The notes under the pieces: model-generated
The model's input: the letters and a program-made list of their open reading frames with translations, nothing else
What the model was told of the DNA's origin: nothing
The model's database searches: none
DNA from: Halioglobus sp.
GTDB taxonomy: Bacteria; Pseudomonadota; Gammaproteobacteria; Pseudomonadales; Halieaceae
Assembly: GCA_002699145.1 (NCBI GenBank)
Contig: PABK01000008.1
Coordinates: 1-64,000 of the forward strand
Reading direction: 5' to 3'
DNA length: 64,000 nucleotides
Translations under genes and position numbers: made by a program
Shown: one piece after another, positions 9,483-49,386 of the stretch
How positions within the stretch are numbered: the first letter of the stretch is position 1
How the letters are laid out: the number at the start of each line of letters is the position of its first letter

Positions 9483-12400
9483 TTACCCCGTCGTCAGGAA
9501 GCGGTTAGCTTCGATACTTTCCAGCAAGCGCTGCACCTGTGCGGGGTCCACGCCGTCCAGCGTGCCCAACTGTTCGCCCTGCACGCGCAGGTCCAGCGTT
9601 ACACGCGTGGACGATACGGCGCGATCCAGTTGCGTCACCTGTTCCTGGCTGCGCCGTTCTGTGCGGGACACGTCCTGGCGCTCTTCGCGCTCTTCGTCCT
9701 GCGTGCGGCTTGCGCGCTCGGCCTCGAGCTCGGCGCGGCGCTGGCGGGCGGATTCTTCTGCCTCCAGGGCCTGCTGCTTTCGCAGTTCATAGGCCTCCTC
9801 GGTGAGCTTCAGCGCCTTTTCCGCATTGGCAATCGTCTCCCGATCTCCCAGCTTTCGGGCCTTATCCAGCTGCTCCTGCAGCTCAGTCTGGCGCTCAAGA
9901 AATCGCAGGCGCTCCACCTCCGCGGTATCGCCACGCAGCGCAGCCAGCTCCTGCTCTGCCGCATTTACCGTGTCGATGATGGAGTCATTCAGGGCCGATA
10001 TTTCACGCCTGGCTGACTGTATGGCCCCGATCAGTGGCCTTAGTTGAGATCCGTCCAAAAGATCGAATCGGCGGGTCAGCTGATCCGCCGAGTAGTCGAT
10101 CTCTTTAACCGCCCGGTCACCACTAAGAATGCGATCGGTCAGCTTCTCAACGGCTATGGCCTGCTCCAGGAAGGCACGCTCAGTTTCAAAGCCCGCCTCA
10201 GCCCAGCTGCGCAATAGCCGTGCGACGGACCCGCCACCTGTAACGCGCTTGTCCATGTCGGCCAGGCGGCCTTCAACAGCAGATAGCTGTTGCTCCAAGG
10301 CGCTAGCGTCAGCTGTGGCCTGGCGAAACCCAAGACGCTGCTGGAAGGCCTCGGCAGCTCGCGATGACAGACCGGAAAGGTAGTTGGCCCATCTGTCGCC
10401 AATGGCGCCGATCGCTGCTCCAACGCTACCGGCGGACTCAACAACCGTGTCACCGGCCTCCTTGGCAGTCCGGCCAGTCTCCTGAAGCTCATCTTGCAGG
10501 AAGACCACTTGCTGGAAGGTCCGCTTGGTCGCATCAGTGGCGTCATCGGCAGCACCACTGACCTGCTGAAAGTTCTGAACCAGCCCACTGCCACCGGGGG
10601 CTTCTTGCTGCTGATCCTCGCTCAGACCCCGCAGCTGGTCCTGTAGGGCCTTGTATCGCTTGCGCAGCTCTTCCAGGCGCTGTGCCGCGGCTTCCGAGCC
10701 ATCCTGCTCCCAGGCCGCCTCCATCTCGGCAATGGCCAGCGCTGTGTCTGCGATCTGGCGGGCCAGTACGTCCTGCTGGCGGGCCAAGCCCTCCGTATTC
10801 TCCGCCGCCGACTTCGCCCCTTCGGCGGCATCGCGATTCGCGCCAACCAGGTCCTTCGCGGCGCTCACCGCGCCCTGAATCACTCCAGCTGCTTTGCCTG
10901 CGCCTTTGCTAGTGTTATCGAAAGCACTGACAGCCGACTTGCCAGCGTCCACTGCAGCCTCGGCGTAGCCGACAGTTTTCGCCCACAGATCCTCCATAGT
11001 GCCTTTCAGGTTCTGTGTGCGGAATTCCGCGCGCCTGACTGCCTCATCTGAAGCTAGGCCGAGATTATTTGCCCCCTTGACCGCCAACTCTATGGCTTTG
11101 GAGACACCGGCAGCCAACGCCCCCCAGTAAGCTTGAATTCCGGCGCCCAGAGCTTGTGTGGTACGAAAAACCCCCAGCAGGGTATTACCAAGAAACTGTG
11201 CAGTATCTACTACAGCCTGAAGGCCGCCGGTAATCTCGTCCCGGTTGTCCAGCAGCAAGCCCACCCAGTCCCGGGTTCGCTCGATCAGGCCGCCAAGCAC
11301 ACCCGCAATGTCACCTATCAACTTCGGATTACTGGCAAGAAACCCTTCGAAATCCTCAGCCAGCTCCGTGAAAGTAGGCGCAAGCTCCGCAGCTACCTTG
11401 TTACGCACCTGGTCCAGTCGGTCACGGATTTGCTGGAAGGCGTCATCGGTGTCTTTCAGGGCCTGAAGGTCGGCCTCTGACACCAGGGAACCTCGCTTCC
11501 TCGCCTGCTCCTGCAAGCGCGTCAGCTCCGCGGTGTTATTCTCGAGGAGCGGCAACAGCAGGGAGGCGTCGCTGGCAAGGGCTTCCAGCACAAATATCTT
11601 GTTTGATCGACTGCCCAGCTTGTCCAGCTCACGGCCGATGGTCGCCAGCTGCTGGTCCGGAGAAAGCCGGGCCAGCTTCTCAATATCCAGCCCCAGCCCC
11701 TGAATAACTTCGCGGGCCTCACCCCCGCCCGTCAGGTAGGCGTCGCCGATCTTCTCGGAGACGTCCTTGAGAATGTCCGCGGCCTTGTCGTTCTCAATGT
11801 TGAAGCGGCTTGCCGCGTACTGGAACGCCTGGAGCTCATCGGTCCCAATACCCAAGGCCTCAGCAGTGGCCAGCGTCTGTCTGGCGAGATCGGCCTGCTG
11901 CGCGGTGAACCGAGTCAGCAGGCCTACAGCAGCGGCCGCGCCCGCCGCAGCAGCGGCCGCGCCCCACTTGCCCAACGTTACGATGCTATCGGACAGCCCC
12001 CGCCGAAAAGCCAGGATGCGGCTGGTACCTTCCTTCTGTTCTCGGTTCAGGTCCTGCAATGCCCGCCGCGCCGCTATCGTCTCCTTCTGGTTGCGCTTCT
12101 GGGCGGCGTTCAGGTCTTCGAGGTTCAGGCCCGCCTGGCCTGCCTCTTCGCCCAGCTCTTCCAGGATCCGTTCGGACTTTTTGTATTCAGCCTCAGCATC
12201 GCGCGCAGTCTTGGTGGCCAACTCAAGGGCCGCCGCTTGGCTGGCGGTCGCCTCACCGCTACGCTCAATCTGCTCCTGCAGTCGCGTTACGCGGATCTTC
12301 GCGCGATCCCAGGCCTTGCCGGTGTTGCTGACCGCCTTTTCAGCCTGCTGGAATTGGCGCACCAGGCGCCCCTGGTCTTCCAGCGCACGCAGCCGATCCT

Positions 12401-24050: not shown

Positions 24051-25205
24051 TTAAAAGTCCCCGGAATCATAAGTCAGCATCAGCTCCAGCGATGCCTTGT
24101 CCTTAGCGTAATACTGATCGTTGGCGCCAATCGCAGGATAAACGACCGGATGCGGCTGCGGAGCAAATGCCGCAGGCGGGTAGCCGTATGAATATGAAAT
24201 CAACCCGCCGAGATATGTAAAGATCGCCGCTATGGTGTCCACGTTTTCTGATGCTGTTTCGGACACGGCCTGCCACTCGCCGCAGACAACCGGCACGGTC
24301 GCGCTTGCCCAGGACGAGATATAGCCAAGCGTGTCATCTATATCTCCCGGAAAGCGGTCCGACGTTGGGTAAAAATGCGGCTGGCAAAAATCCAGCAGGT
24401 CCTGCGTGTTCGCGTAACCGAATGCGCCACTTGGAAATGGCAGAACCCCGCACGTAACCAGCGCGTCAGGGTCAACAGCCTTGATGGCGTCACGCTCCTG
24501 CGTTATCCAGTCGCGCACCGTGTCGTCGTCCACCGAAGCCCCCTCCGCAACGCACTGGTTGTAGTAGACTCCTTGGCTGCCGTAGTTACCAGCGAATATG
24601 TCTGCAGTGGGGTCGGCGCTTATGTACGGCTCGTTAATGAGGTCATAGGCCATTACCGTTGTCGCGTTCCCCGAGTCGACAACAGCCTGCACCAGTTGTG
24701 TCCAGAAATACTCCTGCACGTCCCAGCGATCGGCGTATGGCAAAGCCTCGTACCACGCAGGAGCATCATCCGGCACCCCGACATTGCAGCCGCACAGAAT
24801 CATGTACAGGCCCGCCTGTCTGGCTTGGTCGACCTGATAGATCAGGTTAGCCATTTGCGTGGTGCGCACGGAAAGGCTGTTTTCGTCCGCCCCGGTGATG
24901 TACTGAAACATCTGCAATTGCACGCGGTGGACATTTGCTCCCATGCGCTTATTACCACGCAACTCGCTGCGGATTGCGGACTTCACGGCGGCGGCCTGCG
25001 TCTCGTAGTAATCATCCCAGTGCTGGATGACCGCTGAGCCGTGGTCGAACTCCAGATTGTGGAACCCGTAGGGGTTAATCACTCCGGTTTCGGCAGTGAC
25101 CAGCGAAGATCCGATCGTTGCGACACGCGGCAAGGTATGCCGCAGCTTGATAGCGGACCCGCCAATCGCGACGCGGCTTGTGCCGACCTTGACGCCTTTA
25201 GACAT
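24051..25205 (-). CDS. GH5-like glycoside hydrolase (endoglucanase/mannanase type), likely virion-associated
   Basis: AYDLINEPY (acid/base Asn-Glu-Pro) and VVCGEWQ (nucleophile Glu) in clan GH-A order and spacing. Confidence 0.8.
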   Translation of the reverse strand: MSKGVKVGTSRVAIGGSAIKLRHTLPRVATIGSSLVTAETGVINPYGFHNLEFDHGSAVIQHWDDYYETQAAAVKSAIRSELRGNKRMGANVHRVQLQMFQYITGADENSLSVRTTQMANLIYQVDQARQAGLYMILCGCNVGVPDDAPAWYEALPYADRWDVQEYFWTQLVQAVVDSGNATTVMAYDLINEPYISADPTADIFAGNYGSQGVYYNQCVAEGASVDDDTVRDWITQERDAIKAVDPDALVTCGVLPFPSGAFGYANTQDLLDFCQPHFYPTSDRFPGDIDDTLGYISSWASATVPVVCGEWQAVSETASENVDTIAAIFTYLGGLISYSYGYPPAAFAPQPHPVVYPAIGANDQYYAKDKASLELMLTYDSGDF

Positions 25206-27657: not shown

Positions 27658-28317
27658 TTATTGAAGGCCCACCTTATAGCCGATTTTGAAAAGCGCCATG
27701 CGATCCACCCTGTCGAGATCGTCGCAAACTTTGGCCCAGTGTTGACGATAGGTATTGCTCCACATTTGTCGCGTGATCGTACGGTTGCTCGAGCTGAACT
27801 TGGCGTCCCACGGAATCTCTCCACCCATCTGCCCCATGCGCCATGCGACCATTTCCCGGATTACCGCGCGAGTCTCCGCCCTCACCCCGGCGCAATACAG
27901 CGCCTCATACTGCCTGGCGTATCGATGCAGGAAGCTCGCCCAACACTCGCTCCGCTTGTGGCAGCGGTCCCGATAACAAAAGTGCACCCACAGCTGTTCC
28001 ATCTCCGTCAGTTCGGAAATGCACCGATGGACGAAAGCCGTCAGCTGCTGGCTGTCCGCGAGCAGCGGCCGCGATCGCCCGCTATTGCGGGTTTCCACGA
28101 CGGACACGCGCGTCGCGGCAGTGCGCGACGGAACCTTCTTGCCATCGCCGCGGTCTACTGGCAGGCGTCGCGCCGGTAAGGCCCCCTGCCCATCGGTGCG
28201 CAAGTGGCGACTGCCAGTGAATGCTCCGACACCCCCGCCACGCTTGTCCACGTGGCCGAATGCCGCAAGCAGGGCCGCCCTGCCAATCCGCACCGCCTCA
28301 TCCCCTTCTGCCCCCAT
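27658..28317 (-). CDS. Hypothetical protein in late-regulator (Q-like) position
   Basis: Last gene before the 27491-27530 terminator and the late operon; no motif certainty. Confidence 0.45.
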   Translation of the reverse strand: MGAEGDEAVRIGRAALLAAFGHVDKRGGGVGAFTGSRHLRTDGQGALPARRLPVDRGDGKKVPSRTAATRVSVVETRNSGRSRPLLADSQQLTAFVHRCISELTEMEQLWVHFCYRDRCHKRSECWASFLHRYARQYEALYCAGVRAETRAVIREMVAWRMGQMGGEIPWDAKFSSSNRTITRQMWSNTYRQHWAKVCDDLDRVDRMALFKIGYKVGLQ

Positions 28318-30139: not shown

Positions 30140-30481
30140 CTACTCCTCCTCTCCAAAGAGAGGAAACTCAAAAGCTCCGCCTTTCTGCTCTGCGTCCCAC
30201 CTGCAAAAATCTATAAAGCTATCGAACCCGTCCCCATACTCGATAAACCGCTGGTAACGCTCCTGGCTTCGGCTCATGCGGCGAACTGGCCCCATATCGC
30301 CATACGTGACTTTCCACGTGGGGTGGCATGGTGAAATGATGCCAGGCTTGTCATCGTCAAAACTGACGCCGATGTAATGCCCTTCATCTCGGGCAATGAC
30401 CCCGGCTCGCCCGTTGGCCGTAACCCGGCGTCCATAGCAGGCTGGCACTCGGTAATGCTCACGTACATACTCATAGTCCAT
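30140..30481 (-). CDS. Hypothetical phage protein
   Basis: ORF in compact operon context. Confidence 0.5.
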   Translation of the reverse strand: MDYEYVREHYRVPACYGRRVTANGRAGVIARDEGHYIGVSFDDDKPGIISPCHPTWKVTYGDMGPVRRMSRSQERYQRFIEYGDGFDSFIDFCRWDAEQKGGAFEFPLFGEEE

Positions 30482-30656
30482 GCTTTTTGTACTCCTCCTC
30501 TCCGTTGGCGGCGGGCGAGACGGCGCCCACCCCGCACGCCTCCAGCTCCTGAATTACAGCAGTCTCGATTGTGTGCAGGTGCTCGTGTAGCAATTCGTGG
30601 GAGCGTGATACTTGCAAGCTTACGAATACCAGCAGAGCCAGTATAAGCACCTTCAT
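30471..30656 (-). CDS. Small exported/membrane protein
   Basis: N-terminal hydrophobic segment MKVLILALLVFVSLQVSRS; abuts the large lipoprotein gene. Confidence 0.5.
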   Translation of the reverse strand: MKVLILALLVFVSLQVSRSHELLHEHLHTIETAVIQELEACGVGAVSPAANGEEEYKKHGL

Positions 30657-33600
30657 TTACTCGGCCTCCCCCGCCAACGTTCCGCGGAACCGCTCTTCAG
30701 CGGTCTTCCATCCCAGCTGTTCCAATCGCTCGTCGCTATGCGCATCGTGACAGCCATGACAGGTACACTCCCCTTCGTTGCACACCAAGGGGGTCAGGCC
30801 ATGGGCAACCTTGTCGCCGGCTTCGTCATAGCCAAAATGCCGAAATGGTCGCCCACACTCTACGGGTAAGGACACAGACCCATCGGCGAGCAGCGGAGCT
30901 TTTAGCGGTGGGTATGTTTTCATCAGCCCCTCCCGGTCCGGCGTCCTGGTCCAGTGGTCGAAGTACTCGACACCGAAATATCGGACTATCGCCGGGTAGT
31001 CGGGATGCGCATGCCCCTGGAACGCAACGCGGTTTTGCTCATCGCCCTTACCCGGTATCGGATAGAGCTCACCCGACCGCGCGTCCACCACGCGCAGCGC
31101 ACACTCACCACCGGGCGGCTGGACTTTCTCAACCTGTGGCGTCGGTACGCCGTACAGGTCTTGATACCTCGCAACCGGCTGGGCGTCCCAGCAGTGCCAC
31201 TGCAGATCGCCGCAAGCCATGACCTCGCTCTGGCTGGGATCAAACGGGTTGGTAACCACCTCCACCTTTGCGCGCCTGATCTGCTTCTGGCACGGCGGCT
31301 CACCCCCGAGCGCCGCATAGGTCGCCCTGCCTGGCGGTACCGCTTCAAAGCAGCCGTATCCACGTCCATGGGTATACATCCAATCAGCACCGCCACCAGG
31401 CAGCGGAGCGGGATAGCCAGCCCTGCCGGCAGCGCGGCCGTCGCGGTGCATCCTCGGCCAGCCCAAGTCCTGATCGTTGGCGTACGGCGTCAATGCCTCC
31501 AGGCTCTTCTCTACATAGTGCGCCGACCCAGGCACATCGGAATTCGACTCCATGCCACCCACTTGGCTCGCGCGCAGCGCTCCTTCCACTACACCCCCGC
31601 GAAAATCCAGGCCAAAGATCAATCCCATGGCCCCAGTGCTGTTCTTGGCGTAGTAGTTGGTGACCGCAATCTTTCCCGCGTGGATCTCGCCCGTGGCGCG
31701 TAGCGCGCGAAACTGAGTACTGCCCTCGCCCTTTCGCGCAGGGTCCACCCAGTCTTTGAGCAGCGCAGTGGTGATGATGTTGCCGGACCCATGAGCGCCC
31801 AGAATGGTGATCACCTCACCCCCGCCGAGGCCTACGCTTTTTAGCCACCACACGTTCTGCGGCGTGGATCCGTATTCGCCAGGACCATCCCCCTCCCACG
31901 CGGAAAAGAGCACTTCGCCGCTGGACAACACCTCAGGGCTGAGCGCCATCCACTCCCCCGGCGTGATATCGGTGATGTCGGCGAGCTGACGGCCGACCAG
32001 ACGCGCGCGGTGGATGTGCAGCGCTTTCGAAGGGTAGAAATTGCGCGGGAACCAGTAGCTGCCGTCAGGATGCCTTCCGGGCGTACTGCGCGGGGCATAG
32101 GTCCCCGCTCGATCGCTCGCAAATACAATGCAGTCGTTGCCGCACCAGTCGGGCGTGCGGTCCCGGTGGCCGCTGCTGATCCTGTATCGCTGCCCGCTGT
32201 CCAGCTCATAAATCCACAGCTCAGCGGTCACGGTGTCAAACTCCCACAGATCCGTCATCGGCCCATTTGCCGCCTTGATCGGCCAGCGTGTGGCGCCAGG
32301 CGGAGCGGTGCTGACGGCGTAGACCACCCTTTTGCCGTCGGGGCTGATGCGAGCCTCCTGCGCGGTGCATATGACATCGGATCCCGTGCAGTCGTGGATT
32401 ACCGTGATGCCGCCGGCCAGGTCATCAAACACCACGTCCGCTTCGGTCTGGCGCCACATGCGGCCCACGTCATTGACCCGTTGCCAGTTGCTGGCGTCAT
32501 CGATGGACTTGCTGTAGGGAGTTTCCGGGTCAACAGTAATTCGCGTGCCGTGCCGCGGCTGACGCGTGTAGGTGATTCCCGCGAGCACCGGGGTGGGCCG
32601 GGTGATCTGCAAGGGCGTGTACTGAGTAGCGCTGGCCAGAGTCAGAGCCGGTATGGTGACCTCGCCGGTGCGTGAGACCTCGACCGTGCCGGATGCAGAC
32701 CCTATCGACCAAGAAACGCGATCCCCCCTCTTAAGCTTGAAGTTGGCCGGGTTGCGAATCGTCAGGTCAAAGGTAGCCACCTCCGGCTGGTCCGGAATTC
32801 CGCCGCCGATATCTGTGTGCCTCAGATATCGCAGCGGCAAAGTTAGCCCGCCTTCCGTGTCCCGGACTCCCTTGCTGTTCCAGCTCAGCCCGAGGTTGTA
32901 GTGGCCTCTCGGATAGCCCTTGCCGTCGGCGTCCTGCAGGTGATTCGCAGTCGAGCCAGTGAACACCGGCAGCACCCCCAAGCGTCGGACCTGCGCGTCC
33001 GGTCCCGCGTACCGGTCGCGCCATGGGAGGTTTACGCCAGGCTCACCCCCCTGAACGTGCCAACCCAGCCCCCACATCGCAAAGCACGCGACCTTGTACT
33101 TGTCGCAGTAGCGGAGGAAGTCTAGGTCAAACACACCCAAGTTGTCGTTCGTGTGCCCCTGGAGCTTGAAATAAACGTGCGACAGCCGGCCCTTGCGCAT
33201 CTGCTCTTCCAGATCGGCTGCACTGATATCGTAGCCCTGCCAAGCGCGCTGCACCGCGGGGTCGCGCCAATAGCGCCCCTGCTTGCCGGCAAAGTTGGTA
33301 TGCGGCACCGTGGCGTCCACCACTGATAGCCAGTTTCGCCAGAACCCGTCGGGCATCAGCATCGCCTGCAGGATGCATCCGGTTCCGCCCATAGACGCGC
33401 CCACGCACTCCACCCCCGCGCCGAAGTCTATGGACGGCTTCATCAGCTCCACGGCCTTGTTCAGCGACACCGCCAGGCGATAGCCCGCATGGTTCTTTCC
33501 CTGGTTCGGGCCCCACCAGGTGGCATCATCGCCGTCCTGCGTGCTGCAGTTGGCAATGGTGATGTATCCCGCCTGCGGGTCCTGGTTCGGCTCTGTGCAC

Positions 33601-33896
33601 GCTTTCGGGACGCCCCCGGTTCCGTGTAGCGCCAGCCTCAGCTTTAGGGAATTGTCCCGTGGCAGTGGGTTCGGCGCGATGATCAGCAACGGTATGCCAT
33701 CCTCCGCCTCGGTTTTCGTGGTGTAGGGTTCGCCGCTGAAACTGCAGCGATACGCATTCCACAACTCTGTGACCGGCTCGGGATCCGAGCAGACCACGTC
33801 ACGACTACTGCCGGCCTCGGTTTTGCAACCACCCAGCAGCATCATCATCACCGCCAGGACGATTAGCACCAGGCCAATGCCGAATGATTTATGCAT
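30657..33896 (-). CDS. Large lipoprotein: alpha/beta-hydrolase-like domain + TolB/PD40-like propeller + C-terminal CHGCH c-type heme motif (HzsA-related)
   Basis: MHKSFGIGLVLIVLAVMMMLLGGCK lipobox; HGTGG and VGASMGGTG nucleophile elbow; ARISPDGKRVVYAVS, RTPDWCGNDCIVFASDRAG propeller repeats; GYPAPLPGGG; CTCHGCHDAH near the C-terminus. Confidence 0.78.
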   Translation of the reverse strand: MHKSFGIGLVLIVLAVMMMLLGGCKTEAGSSRDVVCSDPEPVTELWNAYRCSFSGEPYTTKTEAEDGIPLLIIAPNPLPRDNSLKLRLALHGTGGVPKACTEPNQDPQAGYITIANCSTQDGDDATWWGPNQGKNHAGYRLAVSLNKAVELMKPSIDFGAGVECVGASMGGTGCILQAMLMPDGFWRNWLSVVDATVPHTNFAGKQGRYWRDPAVQRAWQGYDISAADLEEQMRKGRLSHVYFKLQGHTNDNLGVFDLDFLRYCDKYKVACFAMWGLGWHVQGGEPGVNLPWRDRYAGPDAQVRRLGVLPVFTGSTANHLQDADGKGYPRGHYNLGLSWNSKGVRDTEGGLTLPLRYLRHTDIGGGIPDQPEVATFDLTIRNPANFKLKRGDRVSWSIGSASGTVEVSRTGEVTIPALTLASATQYTPLQITRPTPVLAGITYTRQPRHGTRITVDPETPYSKSIDDASNWQRVNDVGRMWRQTEADVVFDDLAGGITVIHDCTGSDVICTAQEARISPDGKRVVYAVSTAPPGATRWPIKAANGPMTDLWEFDTVTAELWIYELDSGQRYRISSGHRDRTPDWCGNDCIVFASDRAGTYAPRSTPGRHPDGSYWFPRNFYPSKALHIHRARLVGRQLADITDITPGEWMALSPEVLSSGEVLFSAWEGDGPGEYGSTPQNVWWLKSVGLGGGEVITILGAHGSGNIITTALLKDWVDPARKGEGSTQFRALRATGEIHAGKIAVTNYYAKNSTGAMGLIFGLDFRGGVVEGALRASQVGGMESNSDVPGSAHYVEKSLEALTPYANDQDLGWPRMHRDGRAAGRAGYPAPLPGGGADWMYTHGRGYGCFEAVPPGRATYAALGGEPPCQKQIRRAKVEVVTNPFDPSQSEVMACGDLQWHCWDAQPVARYQDLYGVPTPQVEKVQPPGGECALRVVDARSGELYPIPGKGDEQNRVAFQGHAHPDYPAIVRYFGVEYFDHWTRTPDREGLMKTYPPLKAPLLADGSVSLPVECGRPFRHFGYDEAGDKVAHGLTPLVCNEGECTCHGCHDAHSDERLEQLGWKTAEERFRGTLAGEAE

Positions 33897-33991: not shown

Positions 33992-34258
33992 TCACCACCG
34001 CCACCACAGCAACAATGCCAGCACCAGGTTCAGCACCAGCGAATAGGTGATCAGGTGGCCATTGAAATACGCCGCCCGCGCCACCCTTGCCCCTTCCGTC
34101 CAGATGTTGGTGAATGCATGGCCGGACCAGGGCGCCCGCTTCCAGCGGTCAATGAAGGGCTGCACCGCCCTGCGCCAGATCTTGTATTCCTGTTTGATCC
34201 TGGCCCGCACCCTGGCAAAACCATCCTTTCCCCTCGGCTGATCACTCACCGCTTCCAC
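33992..34258 (-). CDS. Small membrane protein
   Basis: C-terminal TM (ITYSLVLNLVLALLLWW); N-terminal QPRGKDGFARVRARIK shared with the 34748-34897 ORF. Confidence 0.55.
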   Translation of the reverse strand: MEAVSDQPRGKDGFARVRARIKQEYKIWRRAVQPFIDRWKRAPWSGHAFTNIWTEGARVARAAYFNGHLITYSLVLNLVLALLLWWRW

Positions 34259-35365: not shown

Positions 35366-35993
35366 GAGTGCGGACCTCCTCGCCGCTAGATCGCGTGTCG
35401 CCAGGGCCGCGCTCTGGCGCGGTCACTAACCGACTCCTGAGTTCGTGGAGCCTTTTCAGGTCCTCGATGTGCGCAGCGCCAGACTCCAACATCAGGGCCA
35501 CGCTCTCCAGATGCGCACCGTTAAGCCAGGTGCCCATACCGTTGGCCTGAACCTCCGCGCGCAGGCCGGTGGCGCAAAGCCGCATAGCATCTGGGCTGCA
35601 GTCACCTCCGCCGTTCAGGATTGCTTCTTCAGCCTCATCCGGTGACAAGGCCGGCGTCTCGGGATCAGCCTGGGCGGCCGCCCTTTGCATCTCTCGCTTG
35701 CCGGTCAGCAGAAACCAAGTGAGCATCAACATGATGCTGGTAAACCACCAGGCCATAGCCCAGCATGCCACCACCAGAGCAGCCAGCAGGGTCCGATTGA
35801 CTCGCACCAACCACAGCATGGTTTTTTCGAACACCAATGACGCACTGGACAGCAAGGCAGCCCAGCCGACGGCAATGAACAGCCACAAAAGGCCGCGGCC
35901 AATGTTCATCAGTACTTGATCACGCAGGGCATAGCCGACAATGATGTTCGCCAGCGCGGCGCCATAAGCTATCGTTGCAGTGTATTTCCACAT
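35355..35993 (-). CDS. Membrane protein, multiple TM segments
   Basis: Hydrophobic segments ALANIIVGYAL, LLWLFIAVGWAALL, LLAALVVACWAMAWWFTSIML. Confidence 0.6.
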   Translation of the reverse strand: MWKYTATIAYGAALANIIVGYALRDQVLMNIGRGLLWLFIAVGWAALLSSASLVFEKTMLWLVRVNRTLLAALVVACWAMAWWFTSIMLMLTWFLLTGKREMQRAAAQADPETPALSPDEAEEAILNGGGDCSPDAMRLCATGLRAEVQANGMGTWLNGAHLESVALMLESGAAHIEDLKRLHELRSRLVTAPERGPGDTRSSGEEVRTRAT

Positions 35994-37525
35994 TACTCCT
36001 GTCCCTCATCGTCATCTTCATCGTCCAGATCGCGCTCGCCCCATGGGATATACGGCGCCTCGACGTCGTCGTAGATCTCCTGCAGGATCGCCGGGCGGTC
36101 TATGCCACAGGCCAGAATCGCCGCACGAAGGTCGGGCACCTTTAGCTTGTCCCAGGGCTTCCCCTCGGGCTGCTCGAGCTGGTGCAGCTCGACGAGGTGC
36201 AAAAGCTCAGCCTTGCGAAACAGTTCGAGGAAGGGCGCCTCGATCGTCCAGACCGCTTCGATGTTGCGGCCCCAAAGCTCGCGGCAGATTACTTGCGTCT
36301 CGCGCCACGGCAGGGAGTGTGCGACCTCGATTGCCGCGCAGAGCTTCGGGAAGTCGGTCGATTTTGCGGCAAGCAGGTCCTCGATACTGCCGATTCCGGC
36401 CTGCTTACTCGATTTGTAGTCCATGGAGATCGCGGGCTTGCGCCACCACCCGGCGGGCCCTGGCCTTTCCATAGCGTGCCAGGCGAGCAGCTCGTCGGTG
36501 ATATCGATATCGCCCTGCATCTTCTCGATAATCCGACTCACCAGGTAGTCGTGCAGGTAGTCGCGACACTTCTCGCGCAGCGACTGCTGGCGCTGTTCTC
36601 CTTTCTGCTCGACCTCTTTCTCAGAGGGCGCACCGGAGTTCGGCGCCTTCGCCTGCTTTGGCTTCTCGCCGCCAGGCAGTAGCCCAGCCGCCTTTGCCTC
36701 CCCATTCTTCTCCTGGAAGTCCTTCGGGCTCATGCAAACGGCTTCACCACCTACGGTGACGAGGTGCTCGCAGCCCTTACACGCAGTTTTGTAGTTGAAG
36801 TGGACTGCCTTGTCGCCGTACCAGCTGTGCGTTTTCGTAAGGCTCACGCCGCCAGCCTCGTACAGACCCTTGACCGCAGAAACTCGCGCCTCATGCACGG
36901 TGGCTTTGCCCCGCCAGTCGATGTCCTCCTTGAGCTCGCTGATAGCTGCCTTCATGGCGGCGGGGTACTTCTTGAGCGCACGCAGCTTGGACGCCGCGGC
37001 GGGCTCGAGCTGATCAGCGTCGATAAGGTTCTGCACGGCCTTGGGTAAATCGCACAGCTGTATCGCTTGCTCGATTTCCTTCGGCTTCATGGGCGGCAGG
37101 CCTGCGCGCGCCAGGTGCGCCGACAGATCGTTCACCGAGGCGAACTTTTCGCGCCGCAGCGACGCCAGCATGCGCGCCACCTCCATTTTCGAGAGCTTCT
37201 CGCGGATATTGTTCACGGCGAGCTGGTCTACCCGGATATCCTCCTCACTGATATCGCCGTCCATGAGCAGAACCGGCACCTCGTCCTGCTCGGCAATCTG
37301 CGCCGCACGGTAGCGACGCTCGCCGTCGTAGATGACGAGCTCCCCGTTGCTGCTCTCGCGCACGATGATGGGCACCAGGACCCCGCGATCGACGATGCTC
37401 TGCGCGAGCTGCTTCAAGGATTTCTTGTCGAAGTTTTTGCGCGGCTGGTCAGGGTCGGGCGTCAGGGTGGACAGCGGGACGTGCGTTATCTGACCTGCGA
37501 CCAGGGCGTTGTTGTTCTGAGTCAT
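35993..37525 (-). CDS. ParB/RepB-family protein with Cys motif
   Basis: PDPDQPRKNFDKKSLKQLAQSIVDRGVLVPIIVR...YDGERRYRAAQ is the ParB N-terminal domain; CKGCEHLVTVGGEAVC. Confidence 0.88.
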   Translation of the reverse strand: MTQNNNALVAGQITHVPLSTLTPDPDQPRKNFDKKSLKQLAQSIVDRGVLVPIIVRESSNGELVIYDGERRYRAAQIAEQDEVPVLLMDGDISEEDIRVDQLAVNNIREKLSKMEVARMLASLRREKFASVNDLSAHLARAGLPPMKPKEIEQAIQLCDLPKAVQNLIDADQLEPAAASKLRALKKYPAAMKAAISELKEDIDWRGKATVHEARVSAVKGLYEAGGVSLTKTHSWYGDKAVHFNYKTACKGCEHLVTVGGEAVCMSPKDFQEKNGEAKAAGLLPGGEKPKQAKAPNSGAPSEKEVEQKGEQRQQSLREKCRDYLHDYLVSRIIEKMQGDIDITDELLAWHAMERPGPAGWWRKPAISMDYKSSKQAGIGSIEDLLAAKSTDFPKLCAAIEVAHSLPWRETQVICRELWGRNIEAVWTIEAPFLELFRKAELLHLVELHQLEQPEGKPWDKLKVPDLRAAILACGIDRPAILQEIYDDVEAPYIPWGERDLDDEDDDEGQE

Positions 37526-40425: not shown

Positions 40426-40757
40426 TGCGTGTATGTCCGCCCCTGGTGCTGCTTGAAAAACACCAGGAACGCCTCGCTCGTTTCGTAGCCGCAGAATCGC
40501 GCCGCCTTACGAATGTTCACCCGGCCGGACTTCTTCACCAGGAGACTAAGGCGCCGGCACTGCTCCCGGCGCTTTTCCCCCGCCCAGCTGGTGCCTGCAC
40601 CCCTCAACCGGCGGGCCATAGTCACCGGGTTCATGCCCATCCGACGCGCGCATGCGGATGCACTGGCCCGGGCGAGGTCTTCGTGGTGGTACAGGTAGCG
40701 CCGCACCCTGAGGCGCACGGTGGTCGGGTCCTGGGTGCCCAGTTGCGCGACGGTCAT
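40386..40757 (-). CDS. AraC-type HTH protein
   Basis: NIRKAARFCGYETSEAFLVFFKQHQGRTYTQWR matches the AraC HTH signature. Confidence 0.75.
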   Translation of the reverse strand: MTVAQLGTQDPTTVRLRVRRYLYHHEDLARASASACARRMGMNPVTMARRLRGAGTSWAGEKRREQCRRLSLLVKKSGRVNIRKAARFCGYETSEAFLVFFKQHQGRTYTQWRLARQREAIEW

Positions 40758-41818
40758 GCTGGCTCTCCGAAAGTCTCCGTGGACTGCAGGCCCGCGGATC
40801 GCGCGAGGCGATGGCGGTACCTGGCCTGATCACAATCCGCGGACTCCCAGTCACGCAGCACCCAGTCGCGGAACAACCGCGGCCAGTCGCTGTGCTGAAT
40901 CTCCATTGACCGGAACCAGATCACAAACACCTCCCGCGCCTTCTTGATCAGCGGGAGCGGCACCCCCATCGCCTGCAGGTCAGTCACCTGCGCCTCGTCT
41001 GGCTCCCAGTACAAGTCCAGCGCCCTGGGCTGGTTGGCCAACACCTGCATCAGGTAAGGCTTCGGCTGCACCGGAGCGGCGAGGATTGACACGACCAGGG
41101 CGTCCAGGAGCCGGTTGATGCCGGACTGCTCCTTGCACATCCCGAGGAACGCGCGCGCCTGATCCTCCGGGATCGCGTAGCCGGTCAACCAGGTCACGCC
41201 ACGGTCGAAAATGTATTGCGCCGCCGACTCATGCTGATAGAGCTCGCCGAGCGAGCGCATAGAGTTATCCACAGGATTGGCCGCGCGAGCGGCCGATGCG
41301 ATAGCATCGGAACTGGTATGATCATTGGTATGATCAGTACTGGTATGTTCTGGATCGTCTTGGGCAGTTTTTCCAAGTTGGAAGTTGGGTAGTTTTTCCA
41401 AGTTGGGCGGTGTTGTTTTTCCAACTTGGGCAGTTTTTCCAAGTTGGAGAGATTCGCCAGTGTCAGAGCTTCCAACTTGGGCAGTTTTTCCAAGTTGGGA
41501 ATACTCGCCATCTTGGGCGGCCGCGTCCTCCGGCAACAACAGCCGATCGGGAATGGTGAGTCGGTACTTTTTCGGCCCGTGAAAAGACTTTTTCTCGGCC
41601 TTGCTGAGCCACCCTTTGGACTCCAGGCGGCTCGTAATTTTGGAGACCTGCGTGGCGTCTCGATAGCCCGCCCGATGCGCAAGCGTGGCCAGCTTCGGCC
41701 ACACCGTGTCGCAATTCTTGTCCCGAAACGAATACAGCGCCACCAGCACTTTGAACTCCGATGGCGTCAGCTCAGGGTCTGCGATCGCCTCATGGGGCAC
41801 GATGGCGAATTTATTCAA
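40754..41818 (-). CDS. Phage replication initiator (O-like, winged HTH N-terminus, DnaT-like C-terminus)
   Basis: LTPSEFKVLVALYSFRDKNCDTVWPKLATLAHRAGYRDATQVSKITSRLESKGWL; FVIWFRSMEIQHSDWPRLFRDWVLRDW; internal iterons. Confidence 0.8.
   Translation of the reverse strand: MNKFAIVPHEAIADPELTPSEFKVLVALYSFRDKNCDTVWPKLATLAHRAGYRDATQVSKITSRLESKGWLSKAEKKSFHGPKKYRLTIPDRLLLPEDAAAQDGEYSQLGKTAQVGSSDTGESLQLGKTAQVGKTTPPNLEKLPNFQLGKTAQDDPEHTSTDHTNDHTSSDAIASAARAANPVDNSMRSLGELYQHESAAQYIFDRGVTWLTGYAIPEDQARAFLGMCKEQSGINRLLDALVVSILAAPVQPKPYLMQVLANQPRALDLYWEPDEAQVTDLQAMGVPLPLIKKAREVFVIWFRSMEIQHSDWPRLFRDWVLRDWESADCDQARYRHRLARSAGLQSTETFGEPA
41314..41351. repeat. Three short direct repeats TGGTATGATCA/TGGTATGATCA/TGGTATGTTCT
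   Basis: Copies at 41314, 41326 and 41341. Confidence 0.8.
41359..41498. repeat. Iteron array (candidate phage replication origin inside the O-like gene)
   Basis: CTTGGGCAGTTTTTCCAAGTTGG at 41359, 41425 and 41476, variant GTTGGGTAGTTTTTCCAAGTTGG at 41384, plus a degenerate copy at 41403-41429. Confidence 0.82.
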
Positions 41819-47335: not shown

Positions 47336-47590
47336 ATGACCGTGGCACACCAGATGAAAGGCCAGCTGATCCTTGGCTCCAAGTTCCTGAAGAAGCACTT
47401 CCAGGCCGGATCGCGCATGACGAAGCGAGAGCTGGCCCAAAAGATACTGGACGGGACGATACCTGGCTGGGTCGAAGGCGAAACGGAAAACGGCACCCCC
47501 TGGGTCGATGAAGAATCCTGGCTGAACTCCTGGGGTCCGCCCGCGCCGATCACTGGACAGAAAACCAGTGTTGCGGACATGTGGTCCTAG
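47336..47590 (+). CDS. Small protein in excisionase position
   Basis: MTKRELAQKILDGTIPGWVEGETENGTPWVDEESWL; overlaps the integrase ORF start. Confidence 0.5.
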   Translation: MTVAHQMKGQLILGSKFLKKHFQAGSRMTKRELAQKILDGTIPGWVEGETENGTPWVDEESWLNSWGPPAPITGQKTSVADMWS

Positions 47591-48828
47591 TGTATGGTTT
47601 GCGAGCGCACACAACGATGGGAACCGTAACCATGCCCAGGCCTAAAAAGCCCAGGCTTGTGGATGGTATTGTCCTGCACGATCGCCTATTCCAGGACTGC
47701 AGGAAAAGACCAGGCCACTGGCGCTGGCGCCGACCCGATGGAACCTTTAAAACCTTTCGGGCAGACACCCCCGAGGAAGCCAACAGCCTTGTGGAAGCTG
47801 CTCTAAACTTCGACCCGCCGCCCACCGGCGCAACTATTCGAAAAGACTCGCTGGAAGCACTGGTGCCACTGTTCATCGAGCACCGGCAAAAACTAGACCC
47901 CAGCCTCAAACAAAAGACCAGCTGGAAGAACAGGCGCAATGCCCTCAAGGCCTTTGCCAGGTACTTCTCCGGCGTTGGCGTGGGCAAGATCTCCAGGCCC
48001 ATGATTGTCACCTGGTGGGAAGGGCTGACATTCCACCAGCAGAAACAACGGCACACCGAATGCCGCCGCCTCTTCAACTGGCTGATGGGCGAAGGCCTAT
48101 GCCCGCAGCTGGAATATAATCCGTTCACCACCGCCGATGACCGGCCCCGACTCATGCTCTCAGGACAGGCGCCCAAGGCCAGAATGCGAATGGACCGGGC
48201 GGACTTCTGGGCCATCTATCACCAGGCCGGCGAACTGGGGCTGGAAGGCCTGCAAATTGCAATGGGGATTAGCTTGACTACGTTCATGCGTGAGTCGGAC
48301 ATCCTGGCATTACGCCTCGACGAGGATCTGGAGGGGGACCTGCTGAAGAAGGTGATAAGCAAATCAGCACAGCAAAAAGGGTCTGCACGCGCCGCCAGGT
48401 TAAAATGGGATGTCGCAAACCATAGGCTGCTGAAGCAGCTTCTAGCCCGAGCCAGGGTGCTGTCCATAAAGCACTTCCGTTGCCCCTACGTGATATCCCA
48501 TCGCCCGCTAAAGAAGCGCCGGGGTGCAGCGAAGGACCACCCCTACCAAGTGACACGATGGCGCTTGGCTGAAATGTTCGCCGAAGCCAGAGACGCCACC
48601 AGACGGTGGGACATAATTCAGGAAGGGCGCACACCGCCCACCTTCCACGAAGTTAGATCACTGGCTGACAGGCTGGCCGTGGACGCGGGGTATGACATCA
48701 AGACAATCCAGGGCGTAATGGCGCACGAGAGTGACGTCACCACCAAAGACTACCTTGATGGACATCAGCTGCCGTTTGACCAGGTGGATATTGTGTTTAC
48801 TGAAGAAATGATTGGGGGATCCTTTTAA
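47581..48828 (+). CDS. int: Tyrosine-recombinase integrase (true start probably 47617 or 47632)
   Basis: TTFMRESDILAL, PPTFHEVRSLA (HxxR), VMAHESDVTTKDYLD (catalytic Tyr). Confidence 0.93.
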   Translation: MVLVYGLRAHTTMGTVTMPRPKKPRLVDGIVLHDRLFQDCRKRPGHWRWRRPDGTFKTFRADTPEEANSLVEAALNFDPPPTGATIRKDSLEALVPLFIEHRQKLDPSLKQKTSWKNRRNALKAFARYFSGVGVGKISRPMIVTWWEGLTFHQQKQRHTECRRLFNWLMGEGLCPQLEYNPFTTADDRPRLMLSGQAPKARMRMDRADFWAIYHQAGELGLEGLQIAMGISLTTFMRESDILALRLDEDLEGDLLKKVISKSAQQKGSARAARLKWDVANHRLLKQLLARARVLSIKHFRCPYVISHRPLKKRRGAAKDHPYQVTRWRLAEMFAEARDATRRWDIIQEGRTPPTFHEVRSLADRLAVDAGYDIKTIQGVMAHESDVTTKDYLDGHQLPFDQVDIVFTEEMIGGSF

Positions 48829-49308: not shown

Positions 49309-49354
49309 TTGGTCGGGACGACAGGATTTGAACCTGTGACCACCACACCCCCAG
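49309..49354. repeat. attR: 46-bp direct repeat (prophage right boundary)
   Basis: Identical to 237-282. Confidence 0.95.
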
Positions 49355-49386
49355 TGTGGTGCGCTACCAGACTGCGCTACGCCCCG
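49310..49386 (-). tRNA. tRNA-Pro (anticodon GGG), intact, CCA encoded
   Basis: CGGGGCGTAGCGCAGTCTGGTAGCGCACCACACTGGGGGTGTGGTGGTCACAGGTTCAAATCCTGTCGTCCCGACCA folds as a cloverleaf. Confidence 0.96.

Follow-up and report, generated by a model that had tools for sequence, protein, structure and literature searches.

A prophage-borne lipoprotein gene joining an esterase-like hydrolase module to a monoheme module homologous to the alpha subunit of hydrazine synthase

The window, i.e. the whole stretch of 64,000 nucleotides of Halioglobus sp. DNA analyzed here, contains on its minus strand a gene for an exported fusion protein of 1079 amino acids (30657–33896), delimited from the ORF list and from homologues, in which a hydrolase module precedes an HzsA-like monoheme module. 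The ORF of this cargo gene is unbroken from the ATG at 33896 to the stop codon at 30657. An alternative in-frame GTG start lies upstream, at 34007, and would add 37 amino acids; the extended reading is overlapped by an 88-aa ORF of no family (33992–34258, minus strand) with a hydrophobic stretch at its C-terminus. A 61-aa ORF, likewise listed with no family (30471–30656, minus strand), begins immediately after the cargo stop codon and is likely co-transcribed with the cargo gene. Around the latter, no promoter-like site was found and terminators were at chance level, in a scan that is blunt for GC-rich marine hosts.

The protein starts with a signal peptide that carries the lipobox LGGC (33825–33896, minus strand) and forms a helix at residues 6–22 in the structural model. 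Lipidation is predicted at Cys24 (33825–33827), within MMMLLGGCK; the lipobox Cys of LLGGCK and a +2 residue other than Asp constitute the sequence signal of an outer-membrane lipoprotein. The motifs HGTGG, GASMGGTG, SPDGKRVVY and FASDRAG, and the c-type heme motif CHGCH (residues 1046–1050; 30747–30761, minus strand; also seen in the alignment of relatives), were all present as claimed by the first-pass annotation, which had also given the ORF limits and the lipobox correctly. A single CxxCH was observed, and the number expected by chance from the composition of the protein is 0.014.

The gene resides in a lambdoid-type prophage beside a tRNA-Pro gene (49310–49386), next to which the prophage integrase is encoded (47581–48828, plus strand). 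On the minus strand, the order of transcription runs from an O-like replication protein (40754–41818) and a ParB-like protein (35993–37525) to the cargo gene, and then to a Q-like antiterminator (27658–28317; phrog_304, E 4e-11), tail-type genes together with a GH5 cellulase-like protein of the tail-fibre region (24051–25205; PF00150, E 2e-11), a gpA-type terminase, a lambda-family portal and tail genes. Gifsy-2 and mEp460 have terminases with about 53% identity to this one, and the GH5-like protein is a possible virion depolymerase. The genes beyond the tRNA-Pro, with names read from the sequence, are presumably the host pheT, pheS and an ihfA-type gene. Since window and contig begin at the same position, the left end of the prophage lies outside the view. 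The first-pass annotation had placed the gene among the early genes of a prophage. The prophage location is upheld by the antiterminator, terminase, portal, integrase and tRNA-Pro, but an earliest-gene position is not: the gene lies between the replication genes and the Q/lysis/tail/terminase block, in a nin-like region. The GC3 of the cargo gene (0.75) is close to that of the phage genes (0.72), host genes being at 0.88. The host genome encodes CcmE.

Direct searches of the window protein against Pfam, PHROGs, NCBIfam, PADLOC and PDB returned nothing significant. An anti-phage defence role was rejected, there being no PADLOC match. A single-protein scan of genome contigs found no relative, the relatives being recovered with an alignment query; plasmids contained none. 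The protein is built of two halves, an N half (residues about 34–432) and a C half (438–1079), with the seam near residue 437 revealed by partial paralogues in the same genome.

Concerning the N half, alignments, an AlphaFold2 model and Foldseek delimited an esterase-D/CE1-like alpha/beta-hydrolase core (residues 34–300; 32997–33797, minus strand), and the alignment and model an all-beta domain of beta-sandwich type (residues 309–432; 32601–32972, minus strand) with conserved GHYNLGL and PDQP motifs. The catalytic triad predicted from alignments comprises Ser168 as the nucleophile in GASMGG (33393–33395), Asp251 (33144–33146) and His280 (33057–33059), all on the minus strand. The GxS motif and the triad are invariant in seven aligned standalone N modules, and the Ser triad is retained in 20 of 25 N modules, that of the window included. 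It is missing from the host fusions L029, L035 and L036, from the chromosomal module C38 and from L052, a relative described below. The three host fusions have a decayed N half, with the triad and the first 110 or so residues gone, and an intact C half with two hemes. The model of the N half, built on an alignment of 7 sequences and of moderate confidence (pLDDT 67, pTM 0.63), displayed alpha/beta-hydrolase topology, with the three triad residues after the expected strands, plus the beta-sandwich. Its best PDB matches were esterase D, EstA, S-formylglutathione hydrolases and CE7 acetyl-xylan and ferulic acid esterases (Foldseek E 6e-9 to 1e-6). The Pfam Esterase family PF00756 did not match the window protein, and a distant relative (L100) reached E 8e-4 and 19.6 bits, under the cut-off of 22. 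On the strength of this moderate-confidence model, the N half is taken to be an esterase-D/CE1-like alpha/beta-hydrolase with its triad intact. It has in common with the esterase D and CE1 hydrolases (PF00756; PDB 4B6G, 2UZ0, 5VOL) the core topology, the GxSxGG nucleophile elbow and the Ser-Asp-His order; unlike them, the window family adds its own C-terminal all-beta domain with GHYNLGL/PDQP, has no Pfam match and is partnered with an HzsA-like protein.

The C half consists of a PD40-like beta-propeller (residues about 438–960, an approximate boundary; 31017–32585, minus strand), assigned by profile and fold, and a match to the middle domain of HZS alpha, of heme alphaI type (residues about 970–1060; 30717–30989, minus strand). 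Relatives at about 33–41% identity matched PF18582 (HZS_alpha) with 40–48 bits, above the cut-off of 26.6 (E 1e-10 to 1e-12). A search for PF18582 and PD40 had been proposed with the first-pass annotation: the relatives match PF18582, the window protein itself has no Pfam match, and PD40 stays sub-threshold in the relatives. The profile of the C-module alignment found in PDB only 5C2V, HZS alpha (E 2.7e-9). The full-length model, of low confidence (pLDDT 55.6, below 50 in the heme region), also had 5C2V_A as its top PDB fold match (Foldseek E 5e-12). Structure prediction therefore recovered both a propeller and a hydrolase fold at modest confidence, and CxxCH proved invariant among the aligned C-module relatives. 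The C half is thus a true homologue of HZS alpha, with a propeller and a heme-alphaI-like domain bearing one CxxCH, and the kinship proposed at first reading is borne out by PF18582 in the relatives and by the 5C2V profile and fold. The description as a lipoprotein with an alpha/beta-hydrolase, a propeller and a single c-heme motif is supported as well.

Homology does not extend to activity. In hydrazine synthase, the heme is liganded by Tyr591, four residues past the CxxCH His (PMC12607021); the window protein reads CHGCHDAHS, with Ser at that position. A second CxxCH domain, alphaII-like, is carried by host copies and by L052, but the window protein and that of another phage (L053) stop after the first. 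No other CxxCH protein occurs among the called genes of the window, so neither beta/gamma subunits nor a partner cytochrome are encoded there. A hydrazine synthase function was rejected because the Tyr ligand, the alphaII heme and the beta-gamma partner are all missing. Compared to HzsA of Kuenenia stuttgartiensis (PDB 5C2V), the order of a beta-propeller followed by a CxxCH middle domain is the same, but the window protein lacks Tyr at +4, the alphaII domain and phage-encoded beta/gamma subunits, and has instead a hydrolase fusion and a lipobox. Its homology is also to the HZS_alpha homologues of bacteria outside the anammox group, in which the Tyr ligand is absent and some clades also lack the last 100 or so residues with heme alphaII (PMC12758564). 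It differs from these PF18582 proteins in being phage-borne, fused to an esterase-like module, too divergent for PF18582 and without an adjacent beta-gamma homologue.

In bacterial genomes the family is mainly chromosomal within the genus, where 12 of 18 surveyed genomes have the N half and some members have no such gene at all. The two halves were found alone, as adjacent genes (L040, L043) or fused. Elsewhere in the class, the N half is seldom found (2 of 368 genomes). One of the carriers, from another gammaproteobacterial family (G259), has the gene of an N-module protein immediately preceding that of an HzsA-like protein, which matches PF18582 and contains two CxxCH motifs; an alginate lyase adjoins them, an association known from this one genome. 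Encoded in this cluster (L100, G259:C14) are a Calx-beta protein with the N module at its C-terminal end, the HzsA-like protein (1383 aa), the alginate lyase and a protein of beta-helix type. That the halves are fused in some genomes and adjacent in others, even in another family, argues from gene arrangement that both may act jointly. The same patterns exclude a sequencing-error fusion, which had been named as a possible flaw: the fusion recurs in L034 and L052, and the halves are neighbours in L040, L043 and L053. Sulfatase genes were rejected as a functional clue, since their frequency near host copies was not above chance (about 1 per 200 kb).

These genomes also bear on the possibility that the gene is metabolic cargo, by which the lysogen would acquire an exoenzyme for breaking down polysaccharides or esters, equipped with a redox partner domain, and would grow better on algal or particulate material, the phage profiting through the fitness of its host. 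It would fit such a role that, within the genome of this bacterium, no N module other than the prophage copy has a Ser triad, the chromosomal modules C3 and C38 having lost theirs, that neighbouring halves lie beside an alginate lyase in G259, and that each genus genome contains 7–31 sulfatases. However, the gene sits in the lytic delayed-early region with no promoter of its own detected, and other members of the genus do without any such gene. Metabolic cargo is thus considered a serious candidate, although on the whole an unlikely one.

Concerning viral sequences, no match to the cargo was found in 50,697 phage records, and no cultured phage is on record with it; in a viral structure library the propeller and hydrolase matches were weak and of low TM, with no credible counterpart. 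In IMG/VR scans the family was confined to three contigs, of which two come from the bacterium studied here; the cargo is as unusual for a phage as had been supposed. One contig (L008) carries an identical copy (100% over 13,237 bp) and is very probably the same prophage as that of the window and not independent. The homologue survey thus added two further viral contigs. L052 (7564–12222; G000:C4) belongs to a second, unrelated prophage of the same bacterium and encodes a 1552-aa fusion, in which the elbow reads GSDYGG, with Asp in place of Ser, and the triad Asp and His are retained. An Asp nucleophile occurs in dehalogenases and epoxide hydrolases. In L053, from another metagenome, the N and C halves are encoded by two ORFs with 350 bp between them, shortly before a Q-like gene; a 125-aa ORF (10471–10848) is wedged into the gap. 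On the same contig (614–1459), a pair of short proteins encoded side by side contains GWRLPT...WYWSST/WYWTST repeats; by eye they are Lcl/DUF1566-like, a kind of protein sometimes diversified by retroelements.

In all three phages the cargo has replication genes on one side and lysis/terminase genes on the other, and all three versions have signal peptides, on account of which a virion component is disfavoured. L053 and the window phage have distantly in common a replication gene, a DUF3310-like gene, the portal and the terminase. Their C halves form a clade with 100/100 support, long branches being a caveat, and both have the truncation, a WCGxDC motif and a WVDPAR insertion. A joint phage origin of both halves is neither supported nor rejected by the N-module tree (AU p 0.096). 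The gene of L052 is also phage-like in GC3 (0.64 vs 0.69). From the phage-like GC3, and from the truncation and insertion in common with L053, the cargo has probably been resident in phages for a long time. A recently captured host gene of no phage role, i.e. a neutral or decaying insert, would agree with a family that is chiefly chromosomal in the genus and with a C terminus shorter than in host copies. It is nevertheless very improbable, because the 1079-codon ORF is intact with all catalytic residues present and a phage-like GC3, a related phage has the same truncation and indels, and a third phage has its own copy. The cargo is recurrent and phage-adapted, not an artefact, and the architecture, the homology and the status of true phage cargo very probably hold together.

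What the three phage proteins have in common is the propeller and the first CxxCH. Having Asp instead of the nucleophile Ser in L052, they need not have one reaction in common; in that variant the hydrolase chemistry may differ, or may matter less than the heme/propeller half. It could be, then, that the conserved task belongs to the heme and propeller, such as scavenging or turnover of NO, hydroxylamine or peroxide, or electron transfer, protecting the infected cell, with the hydrolase secondary. The match of both profile and fold to HZS alpha would agree with this, as would the conservation in all three phages. Still, such a task is quite unlikely, since the window and L053 proteins have lost the second heme domain, the Tyr ligand is missing in all, the phage encodes no partner cytochrome, and HZS-alpha homologues of non-anammox bacteria have no known activity (PMC12758564).

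The reading favoured here is that of a phage-resident lipoprotein that de-esterifies surface or extracellular polysaccharide, the N half having the fold of carbohydrate and small-ester esterases, a distant pair lying by an alginate lyase and the phage encoding a GH5-like protein. Taken whole, it is held tentatively, at somewhat less than an even chance. From its delayed-early, nin-like position, the cargo would be made on prophage induction, exported by Sec, lipidated at Cys24 and loaded with one heme by the host Ccm system, and the mature protein would be located in the outer membrane. At this site it would strip, by its hydrolase half, an ester group, e.g. O-acetyl, from host surface or extracellular polysaccharide, and the propeller/heme half might bind the polymer or perform an auxiliary redox step. 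The phage would gain from an altered receptor or matrix, through less superinfection, fewer progeny lost on debris and easier escape. The first-pass annotation had put forward a modified host surface, a block on superinfection and an extracellular or redox substrate as possible roles. By parts, a polysaccharide-directed hydrolase is plausible without being probable, and a surface or receptor benefit to the phage is more doubtful. A lead for comparison is T5 Llp, a receptor-blocking phage lipoprotein. Like the cargo, Llp is phage-encoded and exported, with the host outer membrane as the proposed site of action, but it is tiny and non-enzymatic, whereas the cargo is a two-module protein of 1079 aa with a putative effect.

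With this gene, a kind of heme protein is added to the known cargo of temperate phages, and a hydrolase module is named as the likely partner protein of the orphan HZS-alpha-like heme family. The compact one-heme phage version, fused to or paired with a triad-bearing hydrolase and found on three viral contigs, offers a small testable system for the HZS-alpha fold. It is conceivable, if rather less than probable, that temperate marine phages carry, as a stable phage-specific lineage, an exported enzyme directed at the host surface, with an esterase-like module and an HZS-alpha-like heme propeller. In that case phages would be seen to use the hydrazine-synthase-alpha fold for the first time, and a route would open to the function of a widespread orphan heme family.
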